Translations under genes and position numbers: made by a program
Notes under the pieces: generated by a model
Told to the model about the DNA's origin: nothing
Databases searched by the model: none
The model's input: only the letters and a program-made list of their open reading frames with translations
Shown here: piece by piece, positions 14,069-22,372 of the stretch
How the letters are laid out: the number at the start of each line of letters is the position of its first letter
How positions within the stretch are numbered: the first letter of the stretch is position 1
IMG/VR virus record: IMGVR_UViG_3300042878_000349
Location: 1-22,372 of that record
Direction: 5' to 3' (one strand)
Source of the DNA: a virus
Length of the DNA stretch: 22,372 nucleotides

Positions 14069-14713
14069 ATGAAACCTCTCTACCTTATCGCCTGCAGTAG
14101 CGCCAAGCTGGGCCACGCTGCACCAGCTGCAGAGCTGTATCAGGGCCAAGCGTTCAAGCTGGCCATGGCCGCAGCAGAGCGGGCCGGCGCTGATGTAATC
14201 ATCCTCTCGGCCCTACACGGCGCCGTGAGCCCCACGCGCCAGCTGCAGCCCTACGATCGCGCGCTGTGTGACATGAACACCCAACAACGCAAGGTCTGGG
14301 CCGGCATGGTCGCGCAGCAGCTGCAGCAGCATAAAGACCGCGCTATAACTGTGCTGGCCGGTAAACACTACGCCGCCGCCGTTGACTATTTCCCGAACGT
14401 ATCGCGCCCGCTGGCCGGGCTGGGTATCGGCCAACAGCTGGCAGCGCTTAAGAACCTAAACACAACGACCGAAGAGCTGGAAGCGCTCGAAGAGCTGGCC
14501 CTTGCCGACTACAGGGCCGAAGAGGCCGACCGCCGGGCCGCTTGGGCCGCCGGCTGGGATATTGGCAGCGGCGCCGTATTGCTGGCTAAGGTTCGACTCG
14601 GGAAGATACGCGACCAGCTGCACGACCTCGACCACGAAGGCCGGCGCGAACTCGAGCGCGAAGCCCGGGCCGACTACGCCGAGCGCGCAGCCCTCATGCT
14701 TGACGATGCATAA
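14069..14713 (+). CDS. DUF6884-like protein of unknown function (214 aa)
   Basis: The N-terminal domain has LIACSSAKLGHAAPAAELYQ (6-25), DVIILSALHGAVSP (42-55) and QPYDRAL (60-66). These are the Cys/Lys, LYxG and SALHG...PYD signatures that I associate with the DUF6884 group of phage and bacterial proteins; the biochemical role is not known to me. Residues 130-214 form a charged helical extension (DYRAEEADRRAAWAAGW, REARADYAERAALM). AAAGGAA precedes the ATG. It is the first gene of the plus-strand operon and very GC-rich, unlike the minus-strand genes. Confidence 0.7.
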   Translation: MKPLYLIACSSAKLGHAAPAAELYQGQAFKLAMAAAERAGADVIILSALHGAVSPTRQLQPYDRALCDMNTQQRKVWAGMVAQQLQQHKDRAITVLAGKHYAAAVDYFPNVSRPLAGLGIGQQLAALKNLNTTTEELEALEELALADYRAEEADRRAAWAAGWDIGSGAVLLAKVRLGKIRDQLHDLDHEGRRELEREARADYAERAALMLDDA

Positions 14714-14738
14714 ACCCCAACCAACCAAAAGGAAAACC

Positions 14739-14906
14739 ATGGAACCAATGAAACACCACCAACACCGACAGCACTACAGCCCGGCCGCCGAGCGCGCCGA
14801 ATCACGCGCTGCAGCCGGTGCAGACTTCGCGGCCATTTTGCTAGTGGCCGGCGCCCTGACTGTGGGCGCCCTTTTTTACTTCGACATTTTTACAAAGGGG
14901 TTTTAA
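14739..14906 (+). CDS. Small single-pass membrane protein (55 aa)
   Basis: ATG 14739 follows AAAAGGAAAACC, a good ribosome site. The first 28 residues are His/Gln/Arg/Ala-rich and soluble, residues 30-50 are a clear membrane helix (FAAILLVAGALTVGALFYF), and the chain ends in Lys-Gly-Phe. The positive N-terminal half suggests that it stays in the cytoplasm. A long frame that includes this gene starts upstream at 14502 but overlaps the previous gene out of frame, so I reject the extension. Function is unknown. Confidence 0.65.
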   Translation: MEPMKHHQHRQHYSPAAERAESRAAAGADFAAILLVAGALTVGALFYFDIFTKGF

Positions 14907-14908
14907 CC

Positions 14909-15307
14909 ATGGGAAACAGAGCCGTTTTAACTTTCAACACCGCCCGCAATGCGCCTGCAATTTATCTGCATTGGAACGGAGGCCGGGCCAGCGTTCAGGG
15001 CTTTATAGACGCGGCCCGCGCGCTGGGCCTGCGCCATGCGCCAACAGCTGCAGCACAAGCCGAAGCGCTCGACCAGCTGGCCGAAATGATGGCCCGGCAT
15101 TTTTTCCGCTGCAATGTGGGGATGACAGTCTACCGCCAGCAATACGGCACCAGCGACCGCGACAACGGCGATAACGGCACCTATTTACTGGGCCGTGATC
15201 TATCCATTATCGAGCGCCTATACAAAGCCGGCCCCGATGAAATAAACCCGGCCAAAACCGCCGCAATTGTCGAACAGATCACGGCCACCGCGCCCGCATT
15301 TAACTAA
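14909..15307 (+). CDS. Conserved protein of unknown function, GNRAV/YLHWNGG family (132 aa)
   Basis: MGNRAVLTF at the start, AIYLHWNGGRASVQGFIDAA at residues 17-36 and DNGDNGTYLLG at about 85-95 match a family found in phages, plasmids and Firmicutes with no assigned role. AAAGGGG lies 9 bases upstream of the ATG, and the preceding stop is two bases away. The codon use is very GC-rich. It probably acts in the cytoplasm; no signal peptide or membrane segment is visible. Confidence 0.75.
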   Translation: MGNRAVLTFNTARNAPAIYLHWNGGRASVQGFIDAARALGLRHAPTAAAQAEALDQLAEMMARHFFRCNVGMTVYRQQYGTSDRDNGDNGTYLLGRDLSIIERLYKAGPDEINPAKTAAIVEQITATAPAFN

Positions 15308-15316
15308 GGGGCTGCA

Positions 15317-16009
15317 ATGCTTTACACATTCATTCGAAATAGCGGAAACCGCAAAACCGGCCCGCTGCCTGTTACTTACAACCTCCGCGACACTTGCCCG
15401 CCCGGCTGCGCCCTTTACCGGGCCGGCTGCTATGGTGAAGATTTTCATACCCGCATGAGCTGGGACAAGGTACCCCAGCGCGGCGCCCCGGTGCAGCAGC
15501 TGGCCGGCCACATTCAAAGCTTACCGCCCGGCCAAGTGTGGCGTTTTGCTGTAGTGGGTGATCTGCCCGGCAAGGGTGAAGCAGTAGACGCCCACGCGCT
15601 GGGCCTGATCGTGAAGGCCAACCGGGGCCGGCGCGGGTTTACCTACACGCACAAACACCAGCCCGAGGCCCTGCGCTGGGTGAAACACGCCAACGCTTGG
15701 GGCTTTACGATAAACCTAAGCGCCGACAATGCCGGCCACGCCGACAAGCTGGCCAACACCGGCGCCGGGCCCGTTGTTGCCGTTGTGCCCATGGATACGC
15801 CAAAAGTCAGCCACACCCCAGCCGGGCGCCTAATCGTGGTCTGTGAGGCCCAAACCCGAGACGAAATAACGTGTGAGTCATGCGGGAATTTCGAACCATG
15901 GTGCAGCCGGGCCGATCGTGATTTTATTGTGGGTTTCCGGGCCCATGGCAGCAAGGCCAAGCAAACCGACAAGCTGGCCCGCCGAGTCATTCCAATTTTG
16001 AAAGGTTGA
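15317..16009 (+). CDS. Seven-cysteine phage protein, possible metal or Fe-S binder (230 aa)
   Basis: The N-terminus has NSGNRKTGPLPVTYN, then CPPGCALYRAGCYG with Cys27, 31 and 38. The middle has VWRFAVVGDLPG, NRGRRGFTYTHKH and GFTINLSADNAGHADKLAN. The C-terminal third has Cys176, then CESC at 186-189 and Cys196, before FIVGFRAHGSK. I recognise this as a widespread phage and plasmid family without a known function (I recall DUF7227, unverified). The paired cysteine clusters and the alternating strand/helix body suggest a metal-bound barrel-like fold, which is inference. AAGGGG precedes the ATG. Confidence 0.75.
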   Translation: MLYTFIRNSGNRKTGPLPVTYNLRDTCPPGCALYRAGCYGEDFHTRMSWDKVPQRGAPVQQLAGHIQSLPPGQVWRFAVVGDLPGKGEAVDAHALGLIVKANRGRRGFTYTHKHQPEALRWVKHANAWGFTINLSADNAGHADKLANTGAGPVVAVVPMDTPKVSHTPAGRLIVVCEAQTRDEITCESCGNFEPWCSRADRDFIVGFRAHGSKAKQTDKLARRVIPILKG

Positions 16010-20906: not shown

Positions 20907-21362
20907 TCATGCCCTAGCCTCCTCTTGAGCTTTGCTGCGCTGCTTGAGCTCGTAGTCCAACTTCACAATCAAGTCTGCAATATCTGAATCAATCAGGTGC
21001 AGCTTCTTAGTCCAGCGCGAAATCGTCAGCTTAAGATCATGGATAAACTCCTCTTTCATAGAGTCATCCGTCATCACATCGACCATTAGCCTGTAGCCGC
21101 CGCCAGTGCTTCTGTCAGTTGGTAAGCTGACAAATGCGCGAACGTGTGTTGGCTCATCGGCCAATATCGTAATCCGGCACCGTTGAATCAGGGTTCTAGC
21201 CTGATCCCTTCGGTAGTTAATTGCCGCCTCAGTATCATCCCATTCAAAGTGGCTGTGAAGAATGCTTGATTTATCAGCAGCCTCCATGATTACATCGTCA
21301 ATCATCAGAACGCCGCCATTACGCCGCGCCATTTTCTCTAGTAGTTTCCGTTCTGCATCCAT
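20907..21362 (-). CDS. Conserved phage protein of unknown function (151 aa)
   Basis: AAGGAG lies 6 bases before ATG 21362. Residues 33-65 (SILHSHFEWDDTEAAINYRR) carry the HSHFEWDD...YR signature of a conserved phage family. The middle is beta (VRAFVSLPTD, YRLMVDVMTD) and the C-terminus helical (LHLIDSDIADLIVKLDYELK). The family's biochemical role is not known to me. Its start lies about 18 bases from the edge of the pentamer array, so the array may be its untranslated leader. Confidence 0.72.
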   Translation of the reverse strand: MDAERKLLEKMARRNGGVLMIDDVIMEAADKSSILHSHFEWDDTEAAINYRRDQARTLIQRCRITILADEPTHVRAFVSLPTDRSTGGGYRLMVDVMTDDSMKEEFIHDLKLTISRWTKKLHLIDSDIADLIVKLDYELKQRSKAQEEARA

Positions 21363-21380: not shown

Positions 21381-22073
21381 TGCCTGCTAATCCCCGCCTT
21401 GCCAGACCTGTCCGATCCTCGCCATGCCTGCCATACCTTACAGCGCCTTGCCCCGCCGATCCAATCCGTGCCCTGCCTGCCGATCCGCGCCTTACCCTAC
21501 CTCTCCGTGCCTCGCCTCTCCGTGCCTGCCTTTCCACGCCACTCCCGACCGATCCAATCCGCAACGAGCCATACCTGCCATGCCGCGCCTAGTCATACCG
21601 AGCCGCAACCCTCCGTGCCTGCCGATCCAATCCTCACCTTTCCGTAACACGCCCAGCCTCGCCTGCCTCGCCCCACCACGCGCGTCCCAGACGCTCCGTG
21701 CCATGCCTGCCCCGCCTTGCTTCGCCATGCCTTGCCACGCCACACCTGCTATACCGCGCCCCACCGAACCCGTCCACTACGGGCCATGCCTGCCGTGCCT
21801 TGCCTTGCCCCGCCCAACCAAATCGGGCCTCTCCACGCCTGTCCTGCCATTCCGTGCCGCGCCTCACGAAGCCATGCCTCGCCTATCTCCGCCCCGCCTG
21901 CCTTGATGCGCCAAACCTCTCCGCACCGGGCCTTACCAGTGCTCGCCTTGCCACGCCTGCCATGCCTTGCCAGTCCTCGCCCAGACAATCCGCACCGCGC
22001 GTTGCCCCGCCATGCCTGCCTTGCCGGGCCGGGCCATACCGTTCCGGTACGAGCCCCGCCTCGCCTGCGGCGA
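21381..22073. repeat. About 140-unit degenerate 5-bp repeat array (NNNCC on +, GGNNN on -)
   Basis: This 0.7-kb gene-free stretch splits by eye into about 140 units, nearly all 5 bases long and about nine in ten ending in CC (ATGCC, TTGCC, GTGCC, TCGCC, GATCC, AATCC). About a dozen 4-base units occur, and almost all are TGCC. GATCCAATCC recurs at 21458, 21551 and 21624. Short open frames on both strands are a by-product of the composition and have no ribosome sites. It lies between two minus-strand genes. Function is unknown; an origin, a protein-binding array or a structured RNA are possibilities. Confidence 0.9.
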
Positions 22074-22372
22074 TTAGTGGATACTAAACTTGGATTTAAT
22101 TGTTTCCTCGCGGTCGCTCTCCACTACTTGGAACAAGCCAAACCCACAGCCAGCGCTTGCTTTGCTGTCTGGCCGGCCTGCTCCAATCCCTACCTGTAAG
22201 CCGCAACGGCTCACAAGGTTAATTACGTCAACAGTTTTAAACTGATCCATGTCAAAACGAACGCGCAGCTTAACTGCCCATTCTTTGTACATCGGGCGTG
22301 ATCGCACATCCACTACGCCAGTAGCGTTGCGGGTGTGAGCCGTATACACATCACTCTTGCCATAGACGCGCA
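22074..22372 (-). CDS. C-terminal part of a conserved phage protein (cut by window edge)
   Basis: The minus-strand frame is open from the right edge to TAA at 22074. It reads RVYGKSD, VYTAHTRNATGVVDVRSRPM, then KEWAVKLRVRFDMDQFKTVDV, then GLQVGIGAGRPDSKASAGCG and FGLFQVVE. I recognise this as the C-terminal portion of a conserved phage or prophage protein with no firm function. A GTG at 22349 could start a 91-aa product but has no ribosome site, so the gene most likely continues beyond the window. Its stop touches the pentamer array. Confidence 0.75.
   Translation of the reverse strand, partial: RVYGKSDVYTAHTRNATGVVDVRSRPMYKEWAVKLRVRFDMDQFKTVDVINLVSRCGLQVGIGAGRPDSKASAGCGFGLFQVVESDREETIKSKFSIH

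Follow-up and report, generated by a model that had tools for sequence, protein, structure and literature searches.

What is the 0.7-kb tract of short, varied units that lies between two minus-strand genes in the window, the 22,372-nucleotide stretch of viral DNA analysed here (IMG/VR record IMGVR_UViG_3300042878_000349)? A preliminary description had counted about 140 units in a 5-bp rhythm, mostly closed by CC, and both count and rhythm stood: CC dinucleotides recurred 92 times at lag 5, compared with 32.0 ± 5.0 (maximum 50) in 1000 dinucleotide-preserving shuffles. Segmentation of positions 21383-22065 yielded 140 units (126 of five bases, 13 of four and one terminal), 120 of which opened with GG on the minus strand. 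The rhythm was not unbroken, as had been stated; a four-base unit, GGCA (once AGCA), interrupted it every 7-11 units, and because of this recurrence the strongest base autocorrelation of the array lay at lag 49. The minus-strand array of GGHNN units thus splits into 14 modules parted by GGCA.

The first three modules comprise 9 units (22021-22065), 11 units (21962-22016) and 11 units (21903-21957), and their NN positions read GAGGTCCCACATCCCCAA, ATGGAAGCGCTTTGGACTAAAT and GTAAGACTAACCGCGATTGCAA, respectively. Modules 4 (21849-21898) and 5 (21795-21844) have 10 units each, module 6 has 8 (21751-21790; its NN string is identical in a relative, L004), module 7 has 7 (21712-21746) and module 8 has 8 (21668-21707). 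Modules 9-13 follow with 8, 8, 9, 9 and 9 units (21433-21663), and the last, of 8 units, runs into the start of a terminal AGCA-GGCA (21383-21428). Elsewhere in the window, at 14069-16009, a block on the plus strand that includes DUF6884 and DUF7227 proteins is set between two minus-strand gene blocks.

Several familiar readings of such a tract were rejected. Neither a tRNA nor a simple tandem repeat accounts for it, an Rfam search of the array returned no match, and a CRISPR array would require identical repeats with unique spacers, which are absent; the flanking genes had no Cas match in Pfam or PHROGs. An assembly artefact, named in the preliminary description as a potential refutation, is disfavoured since the 683-base array was letter-for-letter identical in two contigs from other samples (L002 and L025); homologous arrays occurred in 72 other distinct sequences, sequenced isolate phages included. 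A functionless simple repeat produced by replication slippage would suit the low-complexity look of the tract and the variation in array length among relatives, but this origin, like an artefact, is extremely improbable: none of the 120 loci that carry both flanking genes lacked the array, the entropy of NN was near maximum, the targets described below were coherent, and conservation across independent assemblies and isolates refutes it. Nor is there a need for copying in steps of 4-5 bases, as had been suggested, given that relatives share GGCA-bounded modules of about nine units.

The flanking genes point to the class to which the array belongs. Minus-strand order is gene A, array, gene B. 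The 3' part of gene A (22074-22372, minus strand), cut by the window end, encodes a predicted RNA-binding protein of RAMP fold that matched phrog_4652 (E = 2e-9 for the fragment and 2e-16 for the full protein, complete at 221 aa in L002:3624-4289). The Vipr protein of Escherichia phage SUSP1 is a member of the same family (E = 1.4e-96), and this shared membership identifies the window locus as a VIPR locus. A profile of protein A also retrieved PDB entry 36pp, 'SUSP1 Vipr' (E = 0.0027), hhalign of the two proteins gave E = 6e-6, and the best PDB matches of its AlphaFold model (pLDDT 72, moderate confidence) in Foldseek were all Csm3-type RAMPs (Csm3/Cas7). Directly after the array, gene B (20907-21362, minus strand; 151 aa; phrog_15946, E = 7.5e-15) is a candidate vap gene, its start codon, preceded by AAGGAG, lying shortly past the array. 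Gene B was always paired with vipr, being near it in all 120 vipr-carrying loci; it had no detectable homology to the SUSP1 vap gene (phrog_5926), and a structure search with it gave no structural match. The array fills the whole gap between A and B, as first described, and in line with both genes it is presumably co-transcribed with them.

VIPR (Viral Interference Programmable Repeat) systems and their guide RNAs, the vrRNAs, were described in April 2026 (bioRxiv 2026.04.26.720920, PMC13142463), and the earlier view that no element of this form was on record is superseded. According to the preprint, each vrRNA alternates a conserved GGY with a hypervariable NN over 9-16 repeats and is encoded beside the gene for Vipr, a RAMP homologue with an RRM core and a glycine-rich loop; vipr and one vap gene make up a minimal locus (PMC13142463). 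The code skips one base at the wobble position, the targets lie in rival mobile elements, and the RNA-protein complex of SUSP1 binds double-stranded DNA and silences or represses from either strand (PMC13142463). Seven types are distinguished there; in type II the vrRNAs are separate and each ends in an invariant, structured 3' tail, one of them lying upstream and three downstream of the genes in SUSP1, and some types have 'staggered arrays with overlapping vrRNAs' (PMC13142463, fig. S18).

The window locus resembles the type II system of SUSP1 in its phrog_4652 Vipr with tandem GGY/NN units, in the two-gene locus with an intergenic guide RNA and, from the guides of relatives, in the one-base skip, the wobble alignment and the choice of rival mobile elements as targets. 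It differs in form: SUSP1 has four separate vrRNAs with structured 3' tails, whereas here a single contiguous array is divided into modules that directly adjoin, with GGCA alone and no structured tail between them. As a positive control, our array detector recovered four separate runs at the SUSP1 locus, placed as in the preprint (PMC13142463). Position 3 is mostly T in SUSP1 and mostly C here, the accessory genes belong to different families (phrog_5926 and phrog_15946), and the targets decoded from relatives are integrases, unlike those of SUSP1. The 'staggered' types likewise have a multi-guide array and, to judge from the mention of them in the preprint (PMC13142463, fig. S18), may be the same type as the one described here. 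Class 1 CRISPR-Cas effectors, with their Csm3/Cas7 backbone, share the RAMP fold, the glycine-rich loop and a set number of guide bases per subunit; unlike them, the present locus has five-base units and an interrupted code, with no identical repeats, no contiguously pairing spacers and no cas genes. The array is genuine and selected, but its class is one already described, and we are highly confident that it is, as a whole, a multi-guide vrRNA locus of a VIPR system.

Related arrays, which the preliminary description had expected to exist unannotated in phage contigs, were found there and in isolates. The terminase places the window phage near HTVC027P/HTVC023P and DSL-LC04, aquatic phages of about 60 kb. 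Gene B as query retrieved 43 viral loci of 49-100% identity, and wherever these included the sequence upstream, the array kept its position and orientation; gene A retrieved 80 loci. Both genes were present in 120 of the 124 loci examined, which belong to aquatic phages and mycobacteriophages, and the array lay on the gene strand in 120 of 120, which bears out the selection for spacing proposed earlier. The array as a DNA query matched in mycobacteriophages only; there, homologues of A and B also stand beside an array, but in the order array-A-B. Cyanophage Cy-LDV1 and Gordonia phages came to light in a protein search, and GGYNN arrays with GGCA marks were seen in 10 of 10 further isolate loci examined. 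A scan of genome contigs for mycobacterial Vipr relatives gave one weak partial match and no array.

Some of these loci merit description in their own right. In some relatives the arrays are much longer (1.1-1.2 kb in L097 and L098, 1.0 kb in L123) and hold about 20 or more modules. In Phage DSL-LC04 (OR003939.1; L048:10890-11822), a protein annotated as 'helix-turn-helix transcriptional regulator' (WJZ48083.1) is Vipr (phrog_4652, E = 2.8e-15), and GGYNN runs with hairpin-like tails lie directly upstream of its gene; this is a different, SUSP1-like form of VIPR in a relative of the window phage. In cluster F mycobacteriophages (L045, L046, L047 and L129-L134), the VIPR loci sit between antirepressor and excisionase genes and the VIPR genes carry no annotation other than hypothetical protein; in the records of Donkeykong and Gorge, the array itself has been given protein-coding genes (gp48, gp53). 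Gp54 of Mycobacterium phage Gorge (L047:1781-2998) contains Vipr in two frames; a single long reading frame joins it to gene B, and this Vipr may be broken by a frameshift.

Unit grammar was derived from 73 distinct arrays with 6972 five-base units. G occupied position 1 at a frequency of 0.91 and position 2 at 0.89; position 3 was C (0.55), T (0.31) or A (0.13), a pyrimidine in 86% of units, and positions 4-5 (NN) were near random, with entropy near the maximum (about 2 bits). Of 728 four-base units, 679 were GGCA, spaced mostly 8-13 units apart (mode 10), with mostly 7-12 five-base units (mode 9) between marks, compared with 7-11 in the window. Between the arrays of divergent phages, NN strings recurred with position 3 altered. 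Where the NN of units 1-4 was identical, the difference in units 5-8 was 11-15% at NN and 40% at position 3; random units differed by 73% and 58%, respectively. The differences between homologous guides overall showed no significant excess of synonymous changes (13/175, similar to relabelled bases) and were given no weight as evidence. The recurrence of NN strings indicates that inheritance proceeds by whole modules of about nine units between GGCA marks and not by single units; since NN is kept and position 3 drifts between relatives, NN carries the message, with the third base largely free.

These comparisons bear on a reading in which the spacing of GG alone is important, the array being an RNA or DNA tract with a structural or regulatory role, for instance as the binding site of a TRAP-like ring, as a protein sponge or as two-tier G-quadruplexes in a row. 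Five-base periodic GG fits both TRAP-like rings, which bind GAG-NN repeats, and GGN3 quadruplexes, and TRAP shares with the present array a five-base RNA periodicity. No TRAP gene was seen here, however, and NN carries information, being kept between divergent phages and decoding to integrase peptides; quadruplexes, in turn, do not need strict spacing. A tract of this kind is strongly disfavoured and very improbable.

The message became legible in relatives of the window phage. When one guide family is read antisense and a single base is skipped after every NN, it spells [TVI][HQY]G[FL]RS[TS][FL]R[DE]W, which we took to be the box II motif of tyrosine integrases before searching for it. The corresponding DNA pattern matched at least 120 viral contigs when about 0.04 were expected by chance, a reversed-unit control gave 0 matches, and all 80 loci examined coded VHGFRS[TS]F[RS]DW in frame, with the skip at the wobble base. 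Natural guides from L114 and L087 were exact over all 11 units at 8 and 2 of those 80 loci, respectively. Against the same loci, other guide families gave 77 near-matches at a skip of one base (71 of them in the wobble phase) and 5, 4 and 1 at skips of 0, 2 and 3; 37 of 369 guides of at least 9 units matched integrases (0.4 expected from shuffled guides), with at least one such guide in 42 of the 69 aquatic arrays. Because the target loci were fetched with the box II family, that family is circular in these counts and the overall integrase share is biased upward; the circularity does not extend to the families that match elsewhere in the gene. The latter fall on NTLATYAYP, DECAEAYM, LKVLEPIW, HHAALPY, KEHHVPL and KVEAAYR. 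Guides in the sense orientation matched a serine recombinase, identified by its motifs (NTTTSMGR, IYTRKSSE). In 1.9 Mb of the same temperate phages outside integrase genes, matches were near chance only; 490 kb around the relatives' own VIPR loci revealed neither clear targets nor a convincing preference of skip; and exact scans with four other guides gave 0, 2, 0 and 3 matches, at chance level or incoherent. No integrase of their own was detected in 16 VIPR phage records tested (Pfam PF00589), a search that matched 14 of 14 control genomes.

All 37 tyrosine-integrase guides were antisense to the gene, complementary to the coding strand, as they would be if the VIPR RNA paired with the rival's integrase mRNA rather than its DNA and served as an antisense repressor. 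We consider this rather unlikely, given that the guides matching the serine recombinase are in the sense orientation and that the SUSP1 system is reported to bind double-stranded DNA and to silence from either strand (PMC13142463). The one-sidedness is itself not explained by either-strand DNA targeting as the preprint presents it, and might reveal how guides are acquired or what is targeted.

The window's own guides were less readily interpreted. Its 14 modules yielded no convincing target, module 2 included, and an exact scan of viral contigs with module 3 found nothing. Two mismatches separate module 8 from integrase box I (TACRxGE); the likeness is not significant, and the module was rejected as a box I guide: its 3 exact matches in 399 genomes (one bacterial order) all lay outside integrase genes. 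We infer that the window's guides act like the decoded guides of its relatives.

On the VIPR reading, a single guide would correspond to one module, some 8-11 GGYNN units between GGCA marks. Vipr subunits would line up on the RNA at intervals of five bases, each gripping a GGY, and the NN pairs left exposed would read the target DNA two bases at a time, passing over one base in between. With the skip on the codon wobble position, a guide would track what its target gene encodes at the protein level. A notable fraction of the guides in this lineage would be directed at the integrase or recombinase genes that temperate rivals carry, and would presumably silence these. The RNA-protein complex, its binding of DNA and the repression are carried over by analogy from the preprint (PMC13142463), and processing would take place at GGCA. 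The present analysis adds the tail-less, GGCA-punctuated form and the targeting of integrases in this lineage, the latter, as far as the text of the preprint shows, a subject not treated there; the array may be the preprint's 'staggered' form or a new variant. More tentatively, and with somewhat less than even confidence, we propose a variant outside the preprint: tail-less, GGCA-only arrays of up to some 20 guides that form a shared, recombining arsenal of lytic aquatic phages against temperate elements, aimed at their integrase and recombinase genes, with a wobble-skipping code that follows catalytic motifs such as the HGFR box.

The locus provides independent support, from raw sequence, for the newest class of RNA-guided systems, and brings into the range of VIPR a wide variety of aquatic phages, one cyanophage and well-studied phages of Mycobacterium and Gordonia. 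The guides of relatives can be read, and many fall on integrase genes, which gives a direct and testable view of a phage's rivals. Cluster F mycobacteriophages offer a laboratory host for immediate tests. Guides that skip the wobble base on conserved protein motifs would be hard to escape by silent mutation.
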